Source: an uncultured Bacteroidales bacterium
Lineage (GTDB): Bacteria; Bacteroidota; Bacteroidia; Bacteroidales; UBA932
Length of the DNA: 64,000 nt
Direction of reading: 5' to 3'
Assembly: GCA_944322565.1 (NCBI GenBank)
Contig: CALUPG010000010.1
Coordinates: forward strand, 1-64,000
The translations under genes and the position numbers were made by a program. The notes under the pieces were generated by a model. That model saw only the letters and a list, made by a program, of their open reading frames with translations, did no database searches and had not been told where the DNA came from. Each line of letters opens with the position of its first letter. Position 1 is the first letter of the stretch. Positions 12,567 to 33,698 of the stretch are shown here, one piece after another.

Positions 12567-12650
12567 GCCCGGATGGCGGAATCGGTAGACGCGTTGGTCT
12601 CAAACACCAATGTCCGAAAGGATGTGCCGGTTCGACCCCGGCTCCGGGTA
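12567..12650 (+). tRNA. tRNA-Leu (anticodon CAA)
   Basis: An 84-base class II tRNA. The acceptor stem GCCCGGA pairs with TCCGGGT (last pair G-U) followed by discriminator A. The anticodon stem TTGGT/ACCAA encloses the loop CTCAAAC, giving anticodon CAA. A variable arm (TGTCCGAAAGGATG) and the T arm (GGTTCGACCCC) are present. CCA is not encoded. Its 3' end forms one side of a 66-bp direct repeat that bounds the integrated element downstream. Confidence 0.95.
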
Positions 12651-12701
12651 CAAAGATAGCCTCACAATCGCTTGATTATGAGGCTTTTTAATTTTAGCAG
12701 G
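12636..12701 (+). repeat. attL: tRNA-Leu 3' end plus terminator (direct repeat 1)
   Basis: This 66-bp copy holds the last 15 bases of tRNA-Leu and the following terminator. It differs from the copy at 21226-21291 at only three positions, two of which are just outside or at the end of the tRNA. Integration therefore restored the tRNA 3' end. Confidence 0.9.
12659..12690 (+). terminator. Terminator of tRNA-Leu
   Basis: GCCTCA (12659-12664) pairs with TGAGGC (12679-12684), with an inner ATC/GAT pairing, followed by TTTTTA. The same hairpin is duplicated at 21249-21280 as part of attR. Confidence 0.75.
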
Positions 12702-13126: not shown

Positions 13127-13615
13127 TTAGAAATCAATACTTTCCAGACTGTTATACAGGGGTATATACCCGAAAATGTTCAATGCCTTTTGGTGCTTCT
13201 CGTTGATTTTGGAAAGGCGTTCCGCCTTTTCCGTGTCGTTCAGTTCCTTTGCCCTCTTGTATGACTTCCTGCCACGGTCAAAATTGTGCTTCAAGTCATT
13301 GATTTTCGTGTGTATGGCAGTGTAGTTGCCAGAATGAGCTATCCTGTACACATACTCGAAGTAGTCCGTTTTCTTGTCGTGGGTCAGCAGTTCCAACGCT
13401 GCAAGCACGTCTTCATCCACACCTTTCCGGCGCAAATCATCTATCGTCAAATCAGAGTCCTCGACCACATCATGCAGGAAACCTGCCTTGATTTCAGCGT
13501 CATTGCTGCCCATGATACCGACCGCAATCGGGTGCAGGATAGCAGGCTTGCCATCCAAATCTTTCTGTCCTCTATGCGCATCAAGCGCAATCTGCAATGT
13601 TTCTTCTATCGTCAT
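13127..13615 (-). CDS. Small HD-domain hydrolase (Mesh1/SAH-like), element copy
   Basis: A 162-residue HD phosphohydrolase. Metal ligands are visible at about H28 (ILHPIAV), H48-D49 (FLHDVVEDSD, with the ED pair typical of ppGpp hydrolases) and D107 (HTKINDLKHN). This is the arrangement of small alarmone hydrolases and Mesh1, so it may cleave (p)ppGpp or a related nucleotide, but the substrate is inferred. It is nearly the same as the protein encoded at 21363-21824, just outside the right att site, except for an extra C-terminal tail (GYIPLYNSLESIDF). It follows a 107-residue hypothetical gene by 14 bp and is probably co-transcribed with it. Confidence 0.85.
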   Translation of the reverse strand: MTIEETLQIALDAHRGQKDLDGKPAILHPIAVGIMGSNDAEIKAGFLHDVVEDSDLTIDDLRRKGVDEDVLAALELLTHDKKTDYFEYVYRIAHSGNYTAIHTKINDLKHNFDRGRKSYKRAKELNDTEKAERLSKINEKHQKALNIFGYIPLYNSLESIDF

Positions 13616-14212: not shown

Positions 14213-14857
14213 TCACAATGTCCTTATTTTCTCATATATCGGTTTCAGTGAATCAGGAATGGCAATTTTCAGATTTTCAATCTCCCTGGACCTGGCTTCC
14301 TTTTCCCGCATGATCCTTTCTTTCAGGTTGACCAGGTCATTCGCCCATTTGTCATGCTCTATCGTCCACTTGTCATTCTTGTGCCTCCAGTCCTCATCAA
14401 TACGCCTCTCAATCTCATTCTTCATCCCGTTGAGTTCCGCCTGCGCCTTGCGGTGTTCGGACTGCAGGGCGAAAAACAGGGCATCTATCTCCTGTTCTTC
14501 GATGTTGGGATAATATGAGTATATCAATGTATCTTTCCCGTTCTCCTTGACCTGTTTAGGCGACAGCTTCCTGCCCATGAAATCCTTTCTCGCTTCAGAA
14601 TACTCTCCGTCCGGATGTATGAATTTGCCTATGACCGCACATCTTGTCTCAAGTTCAAGATAATGATTCCGTTCCTTGATGGAAAATGTGTCCAGCACCT
14701 GTTCAAATGTCAATTTTTCATCCTTCTTCGGTTCCTGTTCGGCAAGTTTCTTTATTTCGTCTGCGCCATAATCGTTCAAACCCTGTTTCAGCCTGTCCTT
14801 TGCCTTTATCGCTTCACGCAGATATGCAATATTTGTATGTCTTATCGGTTTCTGCTG
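14213..14857 (-). pseudogene. 5'-truncated paralog of the coiled-coil protein at 30932-31810
   Basis: From about 14835 this frame aligns with residues 105 to 292 of the intact paralog: YLREAIKAKDRL, IHPDGEYSEARKDF, NGKDTLIYSYYPN, EHRKAQAELNGMK, and the C-terminal IPDSLKPIYEK. A long charged coiled coil fills the last 90 residues. The first 100 or so residues of the paralog are missing. Upstream, the frame runs straight through the operator and promoter at 14858-14892, so the apparent ATG start at 14913 or beyond lies before transcription begins and is not real. No in-frame ATG follows the promoter, only a TTG at about 14860. I infer a deletion that removed the start and N-terminal part but kept the promoter. 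Confidence 0.7.
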
Positions 14858-14892
14858 CAAAGTAAATACATTGTTGTACCAAACTGCGGCAC
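14858..14892 (-). promoter_or_regulatory. Operator/promoter copy A (palindrome plus -7 element)
   Basis: The imperfect palindrome at 14876-14892 (minus strand GTGCC-GCAGTTT-GGTAC) lies 10 bp before TTACTTTG at 14865-14858, one base off TAnnTTTG. The arrangement matches the copies at 17562-17595 and 31840-31874, including a shared TTTGCA-CAG stretch. It is the likely binding site for the WYL regulators. Confidence 0.75.
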
Positions 14893-14940
14893 AAGTGTTT
14901 TTTTTAAGTGATGCTGACATTTGTAAATCTGCCCAAGAAA

Positions 14941-15621
14941 TCATTTGGTTATGTCAATTTCAAGAAAATACCAGTCACTCTGCCCATCTGAAGGATCCCA
15001 CTCCACTTCATATTCTTTGGTCAAATGCAATTCCTGAGGGAGCTTCGTTTCTCTGTTATCATGATACCTGACATACTTCACCGTTTTCTCAACAAGTCCA
15101 AACTCAGGATAATCGTCTGCCTTTGTCTTATATGCATTCTTCTTTTTATATGATTCAGAATCGGTAATAAGATAGAAGCGCCCTTCTGAATATCGAGTGA
15201 CTCCCTCTTCTCCATTGGCGTTTACTCGCTTATCCAAAGCGGCTATATCTTGATATGCCTTAAACATTTTGCTTGTAAAAGTATGCTCCGTTTTAAAGAA
15301 CTTCAATTCTATGGCACACGCATAAATTTTTCTATTGTCTTCCTTAAATCCGCACGTTATATCTATTCTCTCGCTTCCTTTTCCTGACGGAACACCCCAC
15401 TTGGTTTCAACTTCAAGGTAAAAATCCTCATTGCTGCACACTCTCATTTCACCTATGCGTTTTATTGTTGACGCAAAATAAAATTGAAAACCAGCTTCAT
15501 TGTCAATTTCGACATTAAATGTACCGTTCCTAAACTGCCATTTAAAGACTTCCCACGCCTCATCAAGAATTTTTTTCATCCTTGACGGGTAGTCTGTTTT
15601 GATTGATTGTAATTCAGTCAT
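14941..15621 (-). CDS. PD-(D/E)XK-like protein, active-site motif intact
   Basis: A 226-residue protein. The segment ERIDITCGFKEDNRKIYACAIELKFFK carries the D...E-x-K spacing of PD-(D/E)XK nucleases, with a short hairpin between. The rest (KTKADDYPEFGL, KYVRYHDNRE, SDWYFLEIDITK) is shared almost motif by motif with the C-terminal half of the 628-residue protein encoded just upstream. The assignment as a nuclease is inference from the motif; the family itself is not one I recognise. The start at 15621 (MTELQS) is preferred over a TTG at 15630. It lies 24 bp after the 628-residue gene and is probably the second gene of that operon. Confidence 0.65.
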   Translation of the reverse strand: MTELQSIKTDYPSRMKKILDEAWEVFKWQFRNGTFNVEIDNEAGFQFYFASTIKRIGEMRVCSNEDFYLEVETKWGVPSGKGSERIDITCGFKEDNRKIYACAIELKFFKTEHTFTSKMFKAYQDIAALDKRVNANGEEGVTRYSEGRFYLITDSESYKKKNAYKTKADDYPEFGLVEKTVKYVRYHDNRETKLPQELHLTKEYEVEWDPSDGQSDWYFLEIDITK

Positions 15622-15645
15622 AATTAACAATATTTATATTAAACA

Positions 15646-17532
15646 TTACTCAAAATTTTCCACATCCACCTCAAAATAGGCTGCCTTGACTTTGCCGACA
15701 ATACCGGACTTTTCTTTGCCTGCCAAAAGATAATCTTCCGCTTCGGAAAAATACTTTATCAGTTTTCTGTCCTCTATTTTAACCCTCAATGTCCTGCCTC
15801 CCATTTCCGCTGCATTGATTACAAGAAAGTCATTGAGCACATCGCATATTACAGAGTGCGCAGACTTGCTGACTTTAATATCCGATGCGTAAAGAATCTT
15901 GCCGTTTGACAAGGACCACGGCTGACTTTCCACATTTTCAAAAGGGATTTCCGAAAGGCGAAAAGCCGCTTCAAGAGCATCACCGGAATCCCCTTTCAGA
16001 AAGGAATCATACTCTTTTTCAGTAATGACAGCATGATTGTATACCATCCCGTTCTCCTCAAGATTCCGGAAAACACCTACTATACAATCCACGAATTTTT
16101 CATTTACGTCTATTTCGAGAAAATGCCATTCAGAGTGTCCAGACAGAGGATACCAACTGACATAGTATTCATTCCTGAACACGAGTTCCTGCCTCTCCCC
16201 TGTTCCCCGCGCATCGTGATACCTGACATATTTTGCAGTCATAGGCAGATTCAGCCCGAATTCAGGAAAATCTTCGGATTTGGTCTTGTACGCAGGCGTG
16301 GTTCTGTATTCATCAGCACCGGTGACCATATAAAAACGGCATTCCGAATAGCCGTTGACATTGTCCCTGCCACACAAAATGTTTTCAAGGAAATGCAAAT
16401 CCTTGTATATCCTGAATATCCTGCTTGTAAATGAATTCCTGTCACGTATGAGTTTCAGAATAATTGCGCATGAATAAGATGCCGTTTCCGTTTTGAATCC
16501 GCATACGATATCAACCTTTTTCCGCTGTGAAGAACCGGCAGGGATAATGCCTGTCTGTACAAAAAAGTCTTTTGCGTCCGTTGCACTTTCCTTGATTATA
16601 TCCGAAAAAGTCTCACAAAGGGAATCATGTCCGGGAACATATCCGTCAGAAATTCTGTCCTGCAATGTTTTCCATGCCCGATTGAGGATTTCGGACATTC
16701 TTCCGGGCATGAATTCGGATGATATGCCGTCCGAGGAAACCTCGTCAGACTTGGGATTCTCTATATTCTGCCACCAGTTTACAAGATGCCCTTGCATCCA
16801 GAGTGCTCCTGTTATTGCTTCTCTTTTTTTCGGCACTCCGGCGTCCCGAAACAATGTATTCCTGACATAAAGCGGCAATATAGTCTGTTCCTTATTGCCC
16901 ATGCCAAGCAGGATGTCGAGACGGCTCATCGGAATCCCCATTATATCAACGGATTCAACATATTGTACGAAAGACAGGAATTTATAGTCGTCCTTATAGT
17001 CTTCGTTTATCCGGACCAGCGCACTCAAGAACGAGGAATCAAGTGCAGCAGAAAATCTGTCGTCGGTATTGCATAAGTAGGCAAGTGCTGCAATGTTTGC
17101 CTCGCAAGTCTTTCCCTGCTGATACCTGTCCTTGCTTAAATGGTAATCAGTGGCAAAGAAACAGATTTCAGTCCCGGACTCCAATTTGATTGTCACAACT
17201 GCCTCAACATTATTGTCCCAGATTTCGACATCTTCAATTCTGCCCTTTACCGTCAATCCGTCCATAATGAACGGATAGCCGGACACCAATGCGCTGCGCC
17301 CGTCCTGCTCAGCAAGAATAGTCATAAAATTTATCGGAATCTGACTTTCGGACACAGGACACATCAGAGTAAGCAAATCCTTTTCTTCTACGCCGTCATC
17401 CAATACGACTGCGGCTCTCTTTTTCGACAGAATACCGCTGTTCTGTACGATTTCTTTAAGTTTTGCGACAATGCTTTCCTCTCCAAGCACTGTTTCCCAA
17501 TGGCTTCCGTGTCCCTGATCTTTCATGGTCAT
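15646..17532 (-). CDS. Two-part protein with degenerate PD-(D/E)XK-like C-terminal domain
   Basis: A 628-residue protein. Residues 1 to about 280 form an unrecognised domain (GHGSHWETVLGEESIVAK ... VRNTLFRDAGVPKKREAITGALWMQGHLVNWW). Residues of about 295-500 repeat the sequence pattern of the 226-residue neighbour: KVDIVCGFKTETASYSCAIILKL, KTKSEDFPEFGL, KYVRYHDARG, SEWHFLEIDVN. At the putative catalytic site the glutamate of ELK is replaced by isoleucine (ILK), so this copy is probably inactive as a nuclease and may serve as a sensor, scaffold or immunity partner. A last part of about 120 residues follows. The start may be 17532 or 17526 (MTM). It is transcribed from operator/promoter copy B about 30 bp upstream. 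Confidence 0.7.
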   Translation of the reverse strand: MTMKDQGHGSHWETVLGEESIVAKLKEIVQNSGILSKKRAAVVLDDGVEEKDLLTLMCPVSESQIPINFMTILAEQDGRSALVSGYPFIMDGLTVKGRIEDVEIWDNNVEAVVTIKLESGTEICFFATDYHLSKDRYQQGKTCEANIAALAYLCNTDDRFSAALDSSFLSALVRINEDYKDDYKFLSFVQYVESVDIMGIPMSRLDILLGMGNKEQTILPLYVRNTLFRDAGVPKKREAITGALWMQGHLVNWWQNIENPKSDEVSSDGISSEFMPGRMSEILNRAWKTLQDRISDGYVPGHDSLCETFSDIIKESATDAKDFFVQTGIIPAGSSQRKKVDIVCGFKTETASYSCAIILKLIRDRNSFTSRIFRIYKDLHFLENILCGRDNVNGYSECRFYMVTGADEYRTTPAYKTKSEDFPEFGLNLPMTAKYVRYHDARGTGERQELVFRNEYYVSWYPLSGHSEWHFLEIDVNEKFVDCIVGVFRNLEENGMVYNHAVITEKEYDSFLKGDSGDALEAAFRLSEIPFENVESQPWSLSNGKILYASDIKVSKSAHSVICDVLNDFLVINAAEMGGRTLRVKIEDRKLIKYFSEAEDYLLAGKEKSGIVGKVKAAYFEVDVENFE

Positions 17533-17561
17533 CCTATTTTAATGTTTTCCGTATCTGGTTG

Positions 17562-17595
17562 CAAAATTACCGTGCAGGGTGTCATGTTGCGGCAC
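17562..17595 (-). promoter_or_regulatory. Operator/promoter copy B (palindrome plus -7 element)
   Basis: On the minus strand GTGCC-GCAACAT-GACAC (17595-17579) is followed after 9 bp by TAATTTTG (17569-17562), a perfect TAnnTTTG. The ATG of the 628-residue gene follows 30 bp downstream. The placement of the palindrome just upstream of the -7 element fits repression by a dimeric regulator. Confidence 0.8.
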
Positions 17596-17620
17596 TGTGG
17601 CCATTCATCTTTGCCGACAG

Positions 17621-17692
17621 AAAAGCGTGGGCAATCCCGGCGGCTGTTGAGGTCCTGACAAAACCTTTGATGCACGACAGGAATGCCCACGC
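17621..17692 (-). terminator. Long hairpin between WYL gene and nuclease operon
   Basis: GCGTGGGCA (17625-17633) pairs with TGCCCACGC (17684-17692), and an inner AGGT/ACCT pairing is possible in the 50-base loop. On the minus strand the stem is followed by CTTTTC, so it probably ends the WYL transcript just before operator copy B. Confidence 0.6.
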
Positions 17693-17848
17693 TATGCGTA
17701 AGCAGACCTCATCTTTTGCATCAATTTGAAATTTGTCAGGTTTCAACAGACAAGATGAAGTATTGCAGTATTTCTATTTCAACAAATGTAAGAAACTGTT
17801 TCGGATTTTCCGAAAAAATCCGGATGATTCCACAAACAAACCAGCTTC

Positions 17849-18811
17849 TCAGGATTTTTCCGGAATTGCAGCTTCGTTGTCCAGACTGCCATTCCGCTCC
17901 AGAGCCTTCCTGTAAACTTCGCAGATTTCTTTACGAAGATGTTCGGGAGCAATGACGACAAGGTCGTCGCTTTGAGAAAGAAGTTCCTGCTTGAAGTCGT
18001 ATGTAATCTTGACTTTCAGACGGATACGGAATTCCTTTCCGTCGTCCACGAGTGTTTCCTGCGACTCATGCAGAGGGAAAGCCTCGTTATATCGTCCGCC
18101 TTTAGGGGAAAACGACAGGATGACTTCCTCGACCGGAAGATCATTGTTCGAATAGACTCCAACGACATCCCTGAACTCTTTTTCCGGATCTATCTCCGGA
18201 TTTCGCATGAACCGGTTTTTGGTGACATTCAAGTCCCTGATACGGTCAAGCCCCCAACTTTTGATTTCTCCTGCATGACGGACATTTTCCCCTATCTCAA
18301 TGGCAAGCAGATACCACCTTCCGCGTCCTTCCTTAAGGGCATAAGGCATGACACTGCGGCTGCGTGAAACATAATTGTTGAATTTCACATACGTGAATTC
18401 CACTATCAAACTCCGTTTGATGGCATGAATCAGCGGTGTCAGGAATTCGGTACCCCGCGGTTTTCTTCTTTCCGGGAACACAATCGAAGACAATTCTTCC
18501 CTGGCATGGAGAGATGTCATAAGATCATATTGCTCCAATATCCTTTCGATGTCGGATATCTGGTCCTCGTCTTCAGGTATGTAGTAACCGTTTTCAGACC
18601 TGGAGTATTCAATGCTGATGCCCATTACCGAACGGATTTCTTTCAGGTCACGCAGAATCGTCCTTCTGGAAACACCGATATCTTCTGCATCATCAAAATA
18701 TACAAGCCCATCCTCTACCTTACGGACAAGTTCCGGGAGCGAAATATAACGGTTATTTCTTATCAAGCGGATTATGAGCAGATACCGCTGAATATATCCC
18801 TGTTTCGACAT
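17849..18811 (-). CDS. WYL-domain transcriptional regulator (element locus)
   Basis: A 320-residue regulator. It has an N-terminal winged helix-turn-helix (residues about 1-75, with GVSRRTILRDLKEIR as recognition helix), a central WYL domain (GRGRWYLLAIEIGE holds the W-Y-L motif; preceded by IVEFTYVKFN) and a C-terminal WCX-type dimerisation domain (ELLSQSDDLVVIAPEHLRKEICEVYRKAL). WYL proteins such as BrxR and CapW bind inverted repeats and control defence systems, often sensing nucleic acid or nucleotide ligands. It is clearly paralogous to the regulator at 32775-33698. It sits upstream of the nuclease pair but is separated from it by a terminator-like hairpin and a separate promoter. Confidence 0.9.
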   Translation of the reverse strand: MSKQGYIQRYLLIIRLIRNNRYISLPELVRKVEDGLVYFDDAEDIGVSRRTILRDLKEIRSVMGISIEYSRSENGYYIPEDEDQISDIERILEQYDLMTSLHAREELSSIVFPERRKPRGTEFLTPLIHAIKRSLIVEFTYVKFNNYVSRSRSVMPYALKEGRGRWYLLAIEIGENVRHAGEIKSWGLDRIRDLNVTKNRFMRNPEIDPEKEFRDVVGVYSNNDLPVEEVILSFSPKGGRYNEAFPLHESQETLVDDGKEFRIRLKVKITYDFKQELLSQSDDLVVIAPEHLRKEICEVYRKALERNGSLDNEAAIPEKS

Positions 18812-18864
18812 AATCTTGCCAATTTTTCTGTTATCCTTATCCTTACCACGCAGATATTTTATAT

Positions 18865-20010
18865 CTACCCGTTTATTTCCCTTGATATGAACTTCTTTAT
18901 TTCATCTTCGGTAGGGAGTTCCACCATATATTTTTGAACGAAGATGTTTGGGTCAAGCCCTGCGGTCGCATACTTGACCAATGTATCCCCTTTTTCAGTA
19001 CACAGGAGAATGCCGACAGGAGGATTGTCGTCCGGCTGCATTATCTCCGCCTTGTAATAGTTGAGGTACATATTGAGTTGAGAAGCATATTCGTGGCGGA
19101 AACGGTCAATTTTCAGTTCCACTATTATATGGCATTTCAGAATGCGGTGGTAGAATACAAGGTCGGCAAAATAATAATCACCGTCTATCAGAATGCGTTT
19201 CTGACGGGCTTCAAAGCAGAAGCCGTGCCCCATTTCAAGCAGAAAGTTCTGCAGATTGTCAAGTATTGACTGTTCCAAGTCGCTTTCGGTCACCATTGCC
19301 CTGTCATTCAGACCGAGGAATTCCAGGGTAACAGGAGTGTTTATGACATCTTTAGGCTGTAACTGCGCTGCCTGCTGCTGCACCAACGCAGACAGGGCTT
19401 CCTTGTTCTGCGACAGTCCGCTGCGCTCATAATACAGGGAATGTATCTGACGCTCTAATTCCGCTGCAGACCAACAACCTCTGATTGTTTCCATTTCATA
19501 GAATGCTCGTTTTACAGGATTGTCAATCCTTGATATAAGCATCAGATTTGAATAAGTCATTTTATGAAACAACCTGTCGGCAGGTATCATCCATTTTGCA
19601 TCACAAGAAGATTTGGCGGATGCCGTCCGCCGAATGTCTGTTTCAAATTCGGCGGATGCCAACCGCCGAATTGGCTCTATGAATTCGGCACTCATTGACT
19701 GCCGAATATCCGAATTTGACATAAGATATTGTGCAACAGGGTTTTTAAGTTGAGGATATGCCAGATACAACTGTCTGAATTCCCGAAATCTCCGGGCAGT
19801 CAATCCCTTTGTCTTTAACTTAGACTCCAGTTTCTTCAGCAACTTCTCTCCGTATGCCGCCCTGTCCTCTCCGTTCTGCTCGAACTCCACTATATAGTAC
19901 CCTATCAGCCAGTTTCTTGCGGTAAGAGCAAGATTTACCGCGTGTGCCGCCTGTGCCTGCAAGGTGTGCTGAATGACATCTATCTGATTGGCCAATGCTT
20001 CAAAGTTCAT
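18865..20010 (-). CDS. YhcG/DUF1016-family PD-(D/E)XK nuclease
   Basis: A 381-residue protein. Residues 1-100 match the DUF1016 N-terminal domain (LTARNWLIGYYIVEFEQNGEDRAAYGEKLLKKLESKL, TARRFREFRQLYLAYPQ). The C-terminal part is the nuclease domain: FCFEARQKRILIDGDYYFADLVFYHRILKCHIIVELKIDRF, with the D ... E-x-K signature, followed by HEYASQLNMYLNYY. Such proteins are often found beside restriction-modification or in mobile islands, and the target is unknown. Between the domains (residues about 101-133) is a repeat region SAEFIEPIRRLASAEFETDIRRTASAK built from short DNA repeats that each form a hairpin. It lies on the tRNA-Leu element between the WYL gene and the integrase. Confidence 0.88.
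   Translation of the reverse strand: MNFEALANQIDVIQHTLQAQAAHAVNLALTARNWLIGYYIVEFEQNGEDRAAYGEKLLKKLESKLKTKGLTARRFREFRQLYLAYPQLKNPVAQYLMSNSDIRQSMSAEFIEPIRRLASAEFETDIRRTASAKSSCDAKWMIPADRLFHKMTYSNLMLISRIDNPVKRAFYEMETIRGCWSAAELERQIHSLYYERSGLSQNKEALSALVQQQAAQLQPKDVINTPVTLEFLGLNDRAMVTESDLEQSILDNLQNFLLEMGHGFCFEARQKRILIDGDYYFADLVFYHRILKCHIIVELKIDRFRHEYASQLNMYLNYYKAEIMQPDDNPPVGILLCTEKGDTLVKYATAGLDPNIFVQKYMVELPTEDEIKKFISREING
19613..19707. repeat. Three consecutive hairpin repeats inside the DUF1016 gene
   Basis: Three inverted repeats follow one another: TTGGCGG/CCGCCGAA at 19613-19634, ATTCGGCGG/CCGCCGAAT at 19647-19671, and ATTCGGC/GCCGAAT at 19683-19707. Their spacing keeps the reading frame and gives the repeated residues SAEF/IRR. 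They lie in the linker between the two protein domains, where length changes would be tolerated. Confidence 0.75.
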
Positions 20011-21145: not shown

Positions 21146-21225
21146 AGCCCAGACCGCATCCTCGTAACTAACTGATTTTTATTTACTTTATCTGATTATC
21201 TTTGACTATGTTTTTCACGATTACA

Positions 21226-21291
21226 CCCCGGCTCAGGGTACACAGATAGCCTCATAATCGCTTGATTATGAGGCTTTTTAATTTTAGCAGG
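21226..21291 (+). repeat. attR: direct repeat 2 of tRNA-Leu 3' end
   Basis: This copy repeats the last 15 bases of tRNA-Leu and the terminator hairpin with three differences from 12636-12701. The tRNA part is not preceded by a full tRNA, so this is a duplicated 3' end left by integration. Confidence 0.9.
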
Positions 21292-21362: not shown

Positions 21363-21824
21363 TTATATCATGTCGTGCCTGAATATCTGCAGTGCTTTAA
21401 GGTGTTTTTCATTGATTTTGGCAAGGCGTTCCGCCTTTTCAGTGTCGTTCAGTTCCTTTGCCATTCTGAATGACTTCATGCCGCGGTCGCAATTGTGTTT
21501 CAGGTCATTGATTTTAGTATGTATGGCAGTATAGTTGCCGGAATGGGCTATTCTGTGGACATACTCGAAATAATCAGTTCCCTTGTTGTGGGTCAAGAGT
21601 TCCAAGGCGGCAAGCACTTCTTTATCCACGCCTCTTTCCCGCAGGTCATCAATAGTCAAATCAGTGTCCTCCAGGACATCATGCAGGAATCCGGTCTTGA
21701 TTTCAGCATCATTGCTGCCCATAAGCCCTACGGCAACAGGATGCAGGACAGCAGGCTTGCCGTCCAGGTCTTTCTGTCCCTTGTGCGCATCAAGCGCAAT
21801 CTGCAATGTTTCTTCTATCGTCAT
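21363..21824 (-). CDS. Small HD-domain hydrolase (Mesh1/SAH-like), copy outside attR
   Basis: A 153-residue HD phosphohydrolase, nearly identical to the element copy at 13127-13615 through residue 145 or so. The metal ligands are conserved: VLHPVAV, FLHDVLEDTD and HTKINDLKHN. The C-terminus differs (QIFRHDMI). It probably hydrolyses an alarmone or similar nucleotide. It starts 72 bp outside the right att repeat, on the same strand and in the same position relative to the repeat as the element copy. This suggests that the locus has taken up related elements more than once, or that the gene was duplicated with the att site. Confidence 0.85.
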   Translation of the reverse strand: MTIEETLQIALDAHKGQKDLDGKPAVLHPVAVGLMGSNDAEIKTGFLHDVLEDTDLTIDDLRERGVDKEVLAALELLTHNKGTDYFEYVHRIAHSGNYTAIHTKINDLKHNCDRGMKSFRMAKELNDTEKAERLAKINEKHLKALQIFRHDMI

Positions 21825-30931: not shown

Positions 30932-31810
30932 TCAGAGTTGCCTCAATTTTTCATAAATCGGGCGCAGGCTGTCAGGAATCACAATCTTCAGCTTTTCCAC
31001 CTCTTCTCTCTTTCTCTCCCGGGCTGCATTTAGAGCTTCCCTTGCGAGCGCGACTTCGCCCTGCCACTTTTCATGTTCTGCCGTCCACCTGTTCCGCTTG
31101 GCTTCAGCATCACGGCGGATTTCAACCTCTATGCCGTGCTTTATGCCGTTGAGTTCAGCCTGGGCAGCCCTGTGCTCAGCCTGGAGTCTGAAGAACAGGT
31201 CCTCTACATCAGAGGCGGGGACATTCGGATAATATGAATAAATCAATGTGTCCCGGCCGTTTTCCCTAATATCCTTCGGTCCTGCGAGCCTCTTCTGGAA
31301 TTTCTTCCTTGCAGAAGAAAAACTTCCGTCGGGATGTATGCATTTGCCGAATGCGGCACATTTTGCCTCAAGAGCCAGATACCTTGTCTTCTGTCCGATG
31401 CCCATACGGTCAAGTACCTGATTTTCATCCAAAGGCTCCTCAAGCTCCGGCTCATTTTCAAGCAAAGAGTCAAGTTCGGGACTCGAGACGGCGTCCGTCG
31501 CCTCCACGACAAGCCGTTCCTTGGCTTTTATCGCCTCCCGGAGATATGCAATAAGGCTTTTGCAGACTGCCATCTCCTCCAGCCAGCCGGAAATCGATGA
31601 AAGCGTGTCCTCCCCGTTGCCGAACGACACCACAGTCTCCTCCGGTGCCCCTATCAGGGAAACCGTAGTCTTGTGGAAATCCAGCGAAGCCAGGCCGCCC
31701 TCAAGTGCCTGACAGTTCTCCTTGGCAATATTGGCGATATGATTCGCAGAAGTGGATGTAATCCCGTTGTCCGACAGGAACGGAGGGACGGTAACATTTT
31801 TCTTTTCCAT
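30932..31810 (-). CDS. Unrecognised coiled-coil protein of the WYL locus
   Basis: A 292-residue protein of a family I do not recognise. Residues 1-100 are a helical N-terminal domain (SDNGITSTSANHIANIAKENCQALEGGL). Residues of about 105-190 hold the conserved part shared with the truncated copy at 14213: YLREAIKAKERL, IHPDGSFSSARKKF, NGRDTLIYSYYPN. The last 90 residues are a long charged coiled coil ending IPDSLRPIYEKLRQL. The start at 31810 follows a perfect -7 element, and the frame upstream of it runs into the operator and is not coding. It is divergent from a metallo-beta-lactamase-fold gene and shares with it the operator at 31858-31874. Confidence 0.75.
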   Translation of the reverse strand: MEKKNVTVPPFLSDNGITSTSANHIANIAKENCQALEGGLASLDFHKTTVSLIGAPEETVVSFGNGEDTLSSISGWLEEMAVCKSLIAYLREAIKAKERLVVEATDAVSSPELDSLLENEPELEEPLDENQVLDRMGIGQKTRYLALEAKCAAFGKCIHPDGSFSSARKKFQKRLAGPKDIRENGRDTLIYSYYPNVPASDVEDLFFRLQAEHRAAQAELNGIKHGIEVEIRRDAEAKRNRWTAEHEKWQGEVALAREALNAARERKREEVEKLKIVIPDSLRPIYEKLRQL

Positions 31811-31839
31811 ATTATGCAGTCTCTTGATGTCAACTGATG

Positions 31840-31874
31840 CAAAGATATGCTTCCGGTGTGCCATACTGCGGCAC
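31840..31874 (-). promoter_or_regulatory. Operator/promoter copy C (palindrome plus -7 element)
   Basis: The best of three copies: minus strand GTGCC-GCAGTAT-GGCAC (31874-31858), a perfect 5-bp inverted repeat with 7-bp spacer, then 10 bp, then TATCTTTG (31847-31840). The coiled-coil gene starts 30 bp later. It also lies upstream of the divergent hydrolase promoter. Confidence 0.8.
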
Positions 31875-31903
31875 TGTGCAGCAGCACTGTAAAAATTATT
31901 TAA

Positions 31904-31911
31904 TATATTTG
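31904..31911 (+). promoter_or_regulatory. -7 promoter element of the MBL-fold gene
   Basis: TATATTTG matches TAnnTTTG and lies 52 bp before the hydrolase start. The operator is 30 bp upstream of it, so one regulator could affect both divergent genes. Confidence 0.6.
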
Positions 31912-31963
31912 CCGGATCAAATCCCGATGCCCAAAAGACAACCGGCAGCATATCAGTTCACAG

Positions 31964-32791
31964 ATGGACACAGATTCACCGCTCATAACAATGCTCGGCA
32001 CAGGAAGCGCCGCAGTCACCAGATGCTACAACACCTGTTTCCTTATGAATGACAGGGATACGAACCTGCTTGTGGATGCCGGCGGGGGCAACGGAATCCT
32101 GTCCCGGCTGGAAAAAGCGGGAACTGACATCAGAGACATACACAATATGTATCTGACACATGCCCATACGGACCACATCCTCGGGGCGGTGTGGGTGACA
32201 AGAGTCATCATGCAGGAAATGCTCAAGGGCCGCTACGAAGGCACATTTGACATTTTCGGCCATGACAAATCGCTCATGGTGCTGTCGGGAATATGCAGGA
32301 TGACCCTGCACAGAAAGTATTCGGACCTGCTGGGAAAATCCGTCATCCTGCACGAAGTCCATGACGGAGAGACAATCAATGCCGGAAACATTTCACTTGA
32401 ATGCTTCGACATCCTTTCCACGAAAGAAAAACAGTTCGGATTCAGGACGGTGCTGTCAAACGGATGCTCCCTGGTATGCCTCGGCGACGAGCCGTTCAAC
32501 GAAGCCAACCGGAAATATGCAGAAGGAGCCGGCTGGCTGATGTGCGAGGCTTTCTGCCTTTATGAGGACAGGGACAGATTCCGTCCATACGAAAAGAACC
32601 ACAGCACAGCCCTCGATGCAGGCAGACTCGCAGAGGACCTGAAAGTCAGGAATCTCATATTGTACCATACTGAAGACACCTGTCTTGAACAGCGCAGGGC
32701 AAGATATTCGGCCGAGGCCGGGAAATATTTCTCCGGGAACATATATGTCCCCGATGACCTGGAAACCATAGAAATCAGTCAAGCCTCTTAA
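31964..32791 (+). CDS. Metallo-beta-lactamase-fold hydrolase (RNase Z-like)
   Basis: A 275-residue enzyme of the metallo-beta-lactamase superfamily, RNase Z/phosphodiesterase-like branch. Metal ligands are seen in LTHAHTDHILG, in CLGDEPF (the second aspartate region) and in LYHTED near the end; HSTALDAGRLA is also typical of this branch. The N-terminal strand LITMLGTGSA-VTRCYNTCFLM is the family opening. The substrate could be a nucleic acid or cyclic nucleotide, but this is not shown. It is divergent from the coiled-coil gene across operator copy C, and its 3' end overlaps the convergent WYL gene by 17 bp. Confidence 0.88.
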   Translation: MDTDSPLITMLGTGSAAVTRCYNTCFLMNDRDTNLLVDAGGGNGILSRLEKAGTDIRDIHNMYLTHAHTDHILGAVWVTRVIMQEMLKGRYEGTFDIFGHDKSLMVLSGICRMTLHRKYSDLLGKSVILHEVHDGETINAGNISLECFDILSTKEKQFGFRTVLSNGCSLVCLGDEPFNEANRKYAEGAGWLMCEAFCLYEDRDRFRPYEKNHSTALDAGRLAEDLKVRNLILYHTEDTCLEQRRARYSAEAGKYFSGNIYVPDDLETIEISQAS

Positions 32792-33698
32792 GGGCCTTCC
32801 TGTAAATGTCTTTCAATTCCTTGCGAAGATGCTTCGGGGAAATGACGGTCATGTCTTCCGTCAATGACAGCAATTCCTGGATGAAATCCCGTGCAATCTT
32901 AAGCCTCAGCCTGATGCGGATTTCTTTCCCGTTGTCAGCCAGAGTCTCCTGAGACTCATGGAGCGGATATGCCTCGACATACCTCCCGGCCTTCGGCGGG
33001 AAAGAAAGGATGATTTCTTCCACCGGAATGTCTTTTCCGGAATATGCCCCGAATACATCCCTGAATTCTGATTCAGGATCTATTTTCCTGTCCCTGACAA
33101 ACCTTTCTTTCGTGATTTTCAGATTCTGAATCCTGTCCAGTCCCCAGCTTTTTATTGTCCCCGATGCCCTTTCCGCAGAAAAATCCGTCGCCAGCAGATA
33201 CCACCTGCCCTGGCTCTCCTTCAGAGCATAAGGCATCACCCTGCGCACATATGGAGCAGAATTGTCGAATTTGGCATACAGGAATTCAACAACAAGACTT
33301 TTCTTTATGGCGTGGATAAGAGGATTGAGATGCTCCGTGCCCCGTGCCTTGCGTTTCTCGGCAAAGACTATCTGCGACAGTTCCTCCCTTGCCTGAAGGG
33401 AAGTAATCAGGTCATATTGCTCCAGTATTCTTTCAATGTCAGACATCCTGTCCTCATCTTCGGGAATATAGTAGCCCTTGTGCCGGCGGGAATACTCGAT
33501 GCTGATGTCCATGCCGGACTTGATTTCCTTCAGGTCCCTGAGAATTGTGCGCCGCGACACGCCTACTTCATCAGCATCATCATAGTATGCCAGCCCGTCT
33601 TCAACCTCCCTGACAAGGTCTGGGAGAGATATATAGCGCCTGTTGCGGATCAGACGCACTATCAGAAGATATCTCAGTATATAGCCCTGCTTTGACAT
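32775..33698 (-). CDS. WYL-domain transcriptional regulator (second locus)
   Basis: A 307-residue paralog of the regulator at 17849-18811, alike from end to end (YILRYLLIVRLIRNRRYISLPDLVREVEDGLAYYDDADEVGVSRRTILRDLKEI ... GRWYLLATDFS ... LSLTEDMTVISPKHLRKELKDIYRKALK). It has the same winged-helix, WYL and C-terminal parts. The near identity of the recognition helices (GVSRRTILRDLKEI) suggests that both regulators can read the same operator. A TAACTTTA-like -7 element lies about 40 bp upstream. It converges on the MBL gene. Confidence 0.9.
   Translation of the reverse strand: MSKQGYILRYLLIVRLIRNRRYISLPDLVREVEDGLAYYDDADEVGVSRRTILRDLKEIKSGMDISIEYSRRHKGYYIPEDEDRMSDIERILEQYDLITSLQAREELSQIVFAEKRKARGTEHLNPLIHAIKKSLVVEFLYAKFDNSAPYVRRVMPYALKESQGRWYLLATDFSAERASGTIKSWGLDRIQNLKITKERFVRDRKIDPESEFRDVFGAYSGKDIPVEEIILSFPPKAGRYVEAYPLHESQETLADNGKEIRIRLRLKIARDFIQELLSLTEDMTVISPKHLRKELKDIYRKALKRLD

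Follow-up and report, generated by a model that had tools for sequence, protein, structure and literature searches.

Why would a bacterium keep side by side two versions of what looks like the same nuclease domain, one with a complete active site and the other without it? The question is raised by a locus in the genome of an uncultured Bacteroidales bacterium (UBA932 in the GTDB lineage, assembly GCA_944322565.1), located within the 64,000 nucleotides of contig CALUPG010000010.1 (positions 1 to 64,000) that were analyzed as a whole and that we refer to as the window. The original prediction, made from the letters alone, had described here a 226-aa and a 628-aa open reading frame, and both were found where it had located them, on the minus strand. 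We call the smaller protein S and the other one, in which three modules can be delimited, the large protein:

14941..15621 (-), S gene, coding for a 226-aa PD-(D/E)XK-like protein with intact E..E..D..ExK
15646..17532 (-), large gene, coding for a three-module protein of 628 aa
16723..17532 (-), N-X module of the large protein, residues 1-270
16093..16710 (-), Z domain, pseudo-PD-(D/E)XK, residues 275-480
15649..16092 (-), C module, residues 481-628

The 226 aa of S are counted from an ATG; an alternative TTG at 15630 would give 229 aa, and it is from this second start that the spacing of 15 nt to the large gene is measured. The resemblance between the two proteins is far above chance (37% identity over 217 columns, E 2e-44 by BLASTP). 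The homology had been placed in the C-terminal half of the 628-aa protein, and the BLASTP alignment moves it to the middle, residues 276-478. All the motif pairs that had been named were recovered in the alignment, RIDITCGF in S with KVDIVCGF in the large protein, KTKADDYPEFGL with KTKSEDFPEFGL, KYVRYHD, and WYFLEID in S with WHFLEID in the large protein, and the difference between AIELK and AIILK is real. A third copy of S or Z was not found in the genome of this bacterium, which has only these two. The pairing of Z-type and S-type genes recurs in at least seven distinct loci in the genus and, where both are intact, the Z-type gene is directly before S.

S-type relatives and Z-type twins were gathered from genomes of the order, the family and the genus. 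The catalytic-type residues of S are E41, E71, D86, E104 and K106 (the numbering omits the first Met), with the codons of D86 at 15361-15363, of E104 at 15307-15309 and of K106 at 15301-15303. These five and Q45 are invariant in an alignment of 13 diverged S-type proteins. D86, E104 and K106 are retained in all 23 full S-type sequences, i.e., every one of them has the D...(D/E)xK motif of the PD-(D/E)XK superfamily, and E41 and E71 vary in some of the distant solo proteins included among them. On the Z side, the glutamate of ELK (the E104 position), which an active PD-(D/E)XK nuclease needs in its ExK, is missing in eight out of eight sequences and replaced by I or L, although these loci do not count as independent events given the single origin of Z (see below). 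The motif is ILK in the window, LLK in L031 and L032, LLR in L033 and L117, III in the decayed L034, and LFQ in the short forms, designated Z', of L044 and L048. The Z of the window retains D341 and K360, with I358 at the glutamate position. The other fused Z domains also keep the equivalent of D86 and mostly that of K106 (R in two), and in the short Z' forms D and K have both been lost too. One intact and one broken site, as had been predicted, are thus a constant of the homologous operons, and a homolog of the 628-residue type keeping the glutamate was looked for in this set and none was found. Since the first-helix acid may persist as D/E in Z, the active site of the fused forms might conceivably have migrated, with this first-helix D/E or the conserved D in YKDL as candidate catalytic acids.

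The assignment to the PD-(D/E)XK fold could be upheld only in part. In its favor, the AlphaFold model of S has a core (H41-59, E65-74, E83-93, E96-108, H126-135, E142-151) with an element order that fits alpha-beta-beta-beta-alpha-beta and with D86 opposite E104/K106 in a hairpin, at a mean pLDDT of only 50 (alignment of four sequences). In addition, two distant solo S relatives match PDDEXK_9 (PF08011) at 1e-4 and 5e-4, below the curated cut-off. The low pLDDT speaks against it, and so does the Foldseek search with the S model, in which nothing was significant (all E >0.1, the best being 0.12 for EcoRV). The model of the large protein (two sequences) had a mean pLDDT of 32. The fold alignments were made with sequences of the window and the related loci, leaving out homologs from the wider genome searches. 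The likeness to PDDEXK_9 is restricted to those two relatives, as neither S nor the large protein of the window matches it, and in Pfam, PADLOC, NCBIfam, PHROG and PDB chains there was no meaningful match for either of them. The lack of significant Foldseek or Pfam matches for the window proteins themselves is what would be found if D..ELK were a lookalike motif in a pair unrelated to nucleases. We consider this very unlikely in view of the six residues invariant over 13 diverged sequences, of the sub-threshold PDDEXK_9 matches and of the composition of the otherwise weak Foldseek list, headed by PD-(D/E)XK nucleases (EcoRV, SduA, SfiI, McrBC, EcoT38I, NucC, MspJI). A PD-(D/E)XK fold is, on these models and matches, the likely one for S.

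In a maximum-likelihood tree, Z forms a single clade (100/100) nested within the S proteins of the islands, beside the lineage to which the S of the window belongs (99/97). The simplest reading of this topology would be one duplication of an S followed by one loss of the active site. Even with the caveat that synonymous sites are near saturation in several pairs, the dN/dS values of Z (0.11-0.18 in five of six pairs, and 0.45 in the recombinant window/L031 pair) are in the same range as those of S (0.08-0.42), with a looser 0.64 for Z'. Purifying selection on Z indicates a maintained pseudo-nuclease rather than a decaying one. The pairing of a live and a dead nuclease is already known from the XPF family of eukaryotic repair proteins. 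XPF-ERCC1, MUS81-EME1 and FANCM-FAAP24 are heterodimers of homologous ERCC4-type nuclease domains in which the catalytic residues have been lost on one or both sides (PMC3905867). The likeness lies in the combination of active and inactive homologous nuclease domains kept by selection; the pair described here differs in belonging to a bacterial mobile island, in having Z inside a three-module protein and in being known from the genes alone, and a Pfam search of the pair gave no match to the (HhH)2 domain of the XPF/ERCC1 type. Among bacteria, RecC has an inactivated nuclease-like domain, so that in RecB-RecC a live PD-(D/E)XK-like domain has a dead one as its partner. Unlike RecB-RecC, our pair has no helicase domains, and S exists without Z.

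The large protein is a fusion of three parts, of which the two flanking modules also exist alone. Stand-alone N-X proteins (~274-293 aa) adjoin Hsp70-type genes (L036, L037) or an AAA ATPase gene (L047), and stand-alone C-module proteins (154-175 aa) are found in L039, L043, L045 and L046. In the first two loci (L036:1121-6068 and L037:1141-5145) the solo N-X and the Hsp70-type genes are accompanied by a further protein that seems to be shared in part; the location of solo N-X beside Hsp70-type genes suggests a separate, chaperone-linked system. The Z' proteins have only the first N-X residues left (MKD.G.GSH.ET) and no C module. A 437-aa frame containing Z, C and S (L034/L081) was discarded as a telling gene fusion because the large gene is there broken by frameshifts. 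The large gene of L031 is a mosaic, similar to that of L032 up to residue ~360 and then 92-100% similar to that of the window, with a sharp breakpoint at residue ~360-369, i.e., the N-terminal ~360 residues and the remainder of the protein have recombined as blocks. The alleles of S and Z are not strictly co-inherited either: the window and L032 share 92% in S and 57% in Z, and the window and L031 only 60% in S although their Z-C halves are 96-100% alike. Recombination in blocks is what recognition modules do, and it would fit a specificity or restriction-type role in which the mosaic N-X recognizes a DNA or RNA feature and S cuts, as a split restriction enzyme or a heterodimer of the XPF-ERCC1 type. 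We regard this role as possible and rather unlikely, given that the operon has no methylase or recognizable DNA-binding domain and that solo N-X is found beside Hsp70 genes.

Two genes on the same strand lie upstream of the pair:

17849..18811 (-), WYL/WCX-domain HTH regulator, upstream of the Z-type gene
18865..20010 (-), DUF1016/YhcG PD-(D/E)XK protein, PADLOC PDC-S02 candidate

These two neighbors were the only ones with a match in PADLOC, which gave none for S, the large protein or the island gene P3 (see below). The WYL gene is upstream of the Z-type gene in all the intact Z-type loci examined (window, L031, L032, L033 and L117) and precedes the Z'-S pair in L044 and L048/L050. Its product has the HTH, WYL and WCX domains of BrxR/CapW-like regulators. 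BrxR, which shares this domain plan, functions as a repressor and has homologs that co-localize with phage-defence systems (PMC9122601). The likeness to BrxR/CapW-type regulators (PMC9122601, PMC9122588) includes the position upstream of the effector operon of a mobile island; the difference is that the effector is not here a listed system. In three other loci (L038, L040 and L078) the WYL gene is followed by S and there is no Z, so that Z is not essential. This bears directly on the view of the pair as a toxin-antitoxin system, where S would be the toxin, a nuclease, and the large protein would act, via its dead twin domain, as antitoxin or immunity protein. The genes are indeed adjacent with the larger inactive homolog first, they have spread horizontally, and the Z-type gene lacks an accompanying S only in decayed loci or in those truncated by the end of a contig. 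However, the WYL-S loci are devoid of any Z protein and the solo S-type genes of a partner homolog, when a type II toxin should never appear without its antitoxin. Since S does occur without Z, a strict toxin-antitoxin pair is disfavored, and we hold this view to be unlikely.

Elsewhere, the slot behind the WYL gene contains a GIY-YIG protein (L039), Nmad2/Nmad3 (L043) or Nmad3 (L083), and DUF1016 recurs adjoining a WYL gene of the same kind in L084. Such a variety of nucleic-acid genes indicates that the slot is a swap-in place for nucleic-acid enzymes. The Nmad2/Nmad3 (nucleotide-modification-associated) proteins are located at L043:7975-9365 and L083:9292-10101, and a gene for a TROVE/Ro60-type RNA-binding protein comes after the WYL-S pair of L038 (L038:8013-9536).

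The gap between the WYL gene and the large gene, outside 14941-17532, contains one more element:

17603..17763 (-), structured RNA, ~160 nt, 71 nt upstream of the ATG of the large gene

This block of 160 nt is 91-98% identical between loci in which the neighboring WYL genes have, for the most part, differences at 31-72% of their fourfold sites, and its fold on the strand of the genes has a z of -5.6. All the Z-type loci examined have it (partially in the decayed L034) and the WYL-S loci lack it, and no family was found for it in Rfam 15 even at loose thresholds. A covariance model search retrieved diverged relatives across the genus (L045, L046, L118, L120, L122, L169-L192 and L204-L216), and a second model (R2) detected eight copies in the genome under study, one of them (G000:C1:216328-216510) directly before a GmrSD gene. 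In 20 sequences, whose alignment was fitted to the covariance model, 48 of the 54 pairs had double changes, 92.8% of the cells paired, and changes on both sides amounted to 240 cells vs 71.5 in shuffles and 49 or less in slid controls; when the structure was predicted freely from a MAFFT alignment, double changes were present in 15 of 20 pairs. A same-strand gene starts within 250 nt of the RNA 3' end in 33 of 41 copies, not all of them independent (8 in the mirror control, p 5e-6). The median distance is 48 nt, and the usual interval between the RNA and the gene that follows on its strand is 10-200 nt. Covarying structure and position 5' of same-strand genes are the marks of a cis-regulatory RNA and, judging by them, the RNA at 17603-17763 represents a leader-type family, about 140-200 nt long and with conserved GAAACCUGAGAAAUUUCAA / GGUUUUCUCAGGACCUCA arms. 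It shares these two marks with riboswitch-like leaders and with the candidates of structured RNA surveys (PMC2864571), from which the absence of an Rfam 15 match sets it apart; the family appears to be undescribed, as far as Rfam 15 and a limited literature search extend. In many copies an apical GCGUGGG has two possible partners, the other strand of its hairpin and a 3' CCCACGC that is followed by a U run, an alternative that suggests a possible attenuator. A palindrome at the DNA level is less likely because many of the pairs are G-U in the modeled strand, and single-base indels speak against a coding sequence. Four IMG/VR matches to a 20-base piece of the RNA fell inside a phage tape-measure-like gene and were discarded as chance.

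The genes behind the RNA, given here as occurrences and not as a frequency against the genome background, include GmrSD, an EcoRI-type methylase with GmrSD_N-HNH, an HsdR_N nuclease in four IMG/VR contigs, two solo S-type genes, a PDDEXK_5-like gene in L079 and, 332 nt downstream and with a short ORF between, a gene of the UDG family. A link of the RNA solely to the Z-type gene was dropped since copies precede many other genes; those in front of membrane and lipoprotein genes, OmpA, PEGA and beta-barrel ones among them, indicate that the RNA is not specific of defence. GmrSD, HsdR_N and the EcoRI-type methylase with GmrSD_N led by relatives of the same RNA do, on the other hand, lend something to the restriction-type role mentioned above. 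Tentatively, and with confidence slightly short of the midpoint, we propose that this is an undescribed Bacteroidales class of regulatory RNA located just upstream of restriction- or defence-type genes and that it would here control a nuclease and its maintained pseudo-nuclease partner. A covarying RNA absent from Rfam and placed before GmrSD, HsdR-type, methylase and PD-(D/E)XK genes would point to control of defence genes at the RNA level, and the leader RNA may matter more than the nuclease pair itself.

The whole locus is contained in a genomic island of 8.7 kb that extends from a tRNA-Leu to an imperfect 74-nt repeat of the tRNA 3' end, with a recombinase at the far end:

12567..12651 (+), tRNA-Leu (CAA), island integration site
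12628..12701 (.), left direct repeat, att-like, includes the tRNA 3' end
13127..13615 (-), HD-domain-like island backbone gene
14213..14944 (-), P3, backbone gene of WYL islands, 243 aa
20033..20998 (-), tyrosine recombinase (Phage_integrase, SAM-like N-terminal domain)
21218..21291 (.), right direct repeat, 92% identical over 74 nt

The integrase and the pair of direct repeats, one of which overlaps the 3' end of the tRNA, are those of a tRNA-integrated island. The P3 of the window is shortened at the N-terminus relative to the 291-aa homologs of L031 and L044. An empty insertion site was sought in relatives and not found, nor were the flanking genes found together there. Another species (G683) has a contig of 4,468 bp with 100% identity to 14754-19221, and the atpA of that species is only 78% identical, which indicates a recent transfer, with the caveat that draft assemblies may hold misbinned small contigs. 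Searches of viral, phage and plasmid sequences with the large protein gave nothing useful; distant S relatives are found on Comamonas and Sphingobium plasmids.

The reading that we prefer, with a confidence that stands at the midpoint between belief and doubt, is a mobile and regulated nuclease effector module provided with a pseudo-nuclease partner. It starts from what is directly supported, i.e., the duplication, the loss of catalytic residues on one side and their retention on the other, the purifying selection on Z, the modular fusion, the island, the WYL neighbor and the covarying leader RNA. From there we infer that S would be the catalytic subunit, with the activity of a PD-(D/E)XK-type nuclease. 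The duplicated nuclease domain of the large protein would have lost its catalytic acid once and been kept afterwards as a non-catalytic partner. Flanked by N-X and C, Z would most likely dock on S, in a physical interaction, or on the substrate, and the docked large protein would set the specificity of S or restrain it. The WYL regulator and the structured leader RNA would gate expression, so that the effector would be produced only under a trigger such as the invasion by a phage or another mobile element, against which it presumably acts. The loose co-inheritance of the S and Z alleles, the loci with S and no Z, and the RNA copies in front of membrane and lipoprotein genes weigh against this reading, as do the lack of database matches for both proteins, the low pLDDT of the models and a conceivable migrated acid in Z. 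A live and dead pair in a bacterial island, of single origin, selected and moving between species, would be a tractable model for studying nucleases that are controlled or aimed by a pseudo-nuclease.

Traces of similar elements were found elsewhere in the window. A second WYL regulator, 71% identical, is located at 32775-33698 (-) with a P3-like gene nearby, at 30932-31951 (-), and an MBL-fold-like ORF in the opposite strand between them. They represent a further copy of the WYL/P3 backbone, differently loaded. Just beyond the right repeat there is also a second HD-domain-like gene, at 21363-21824 (-), with a protein 85% identical to that of 13127-13615 (-), as if it were the remnant of an older island at the same tRNA.
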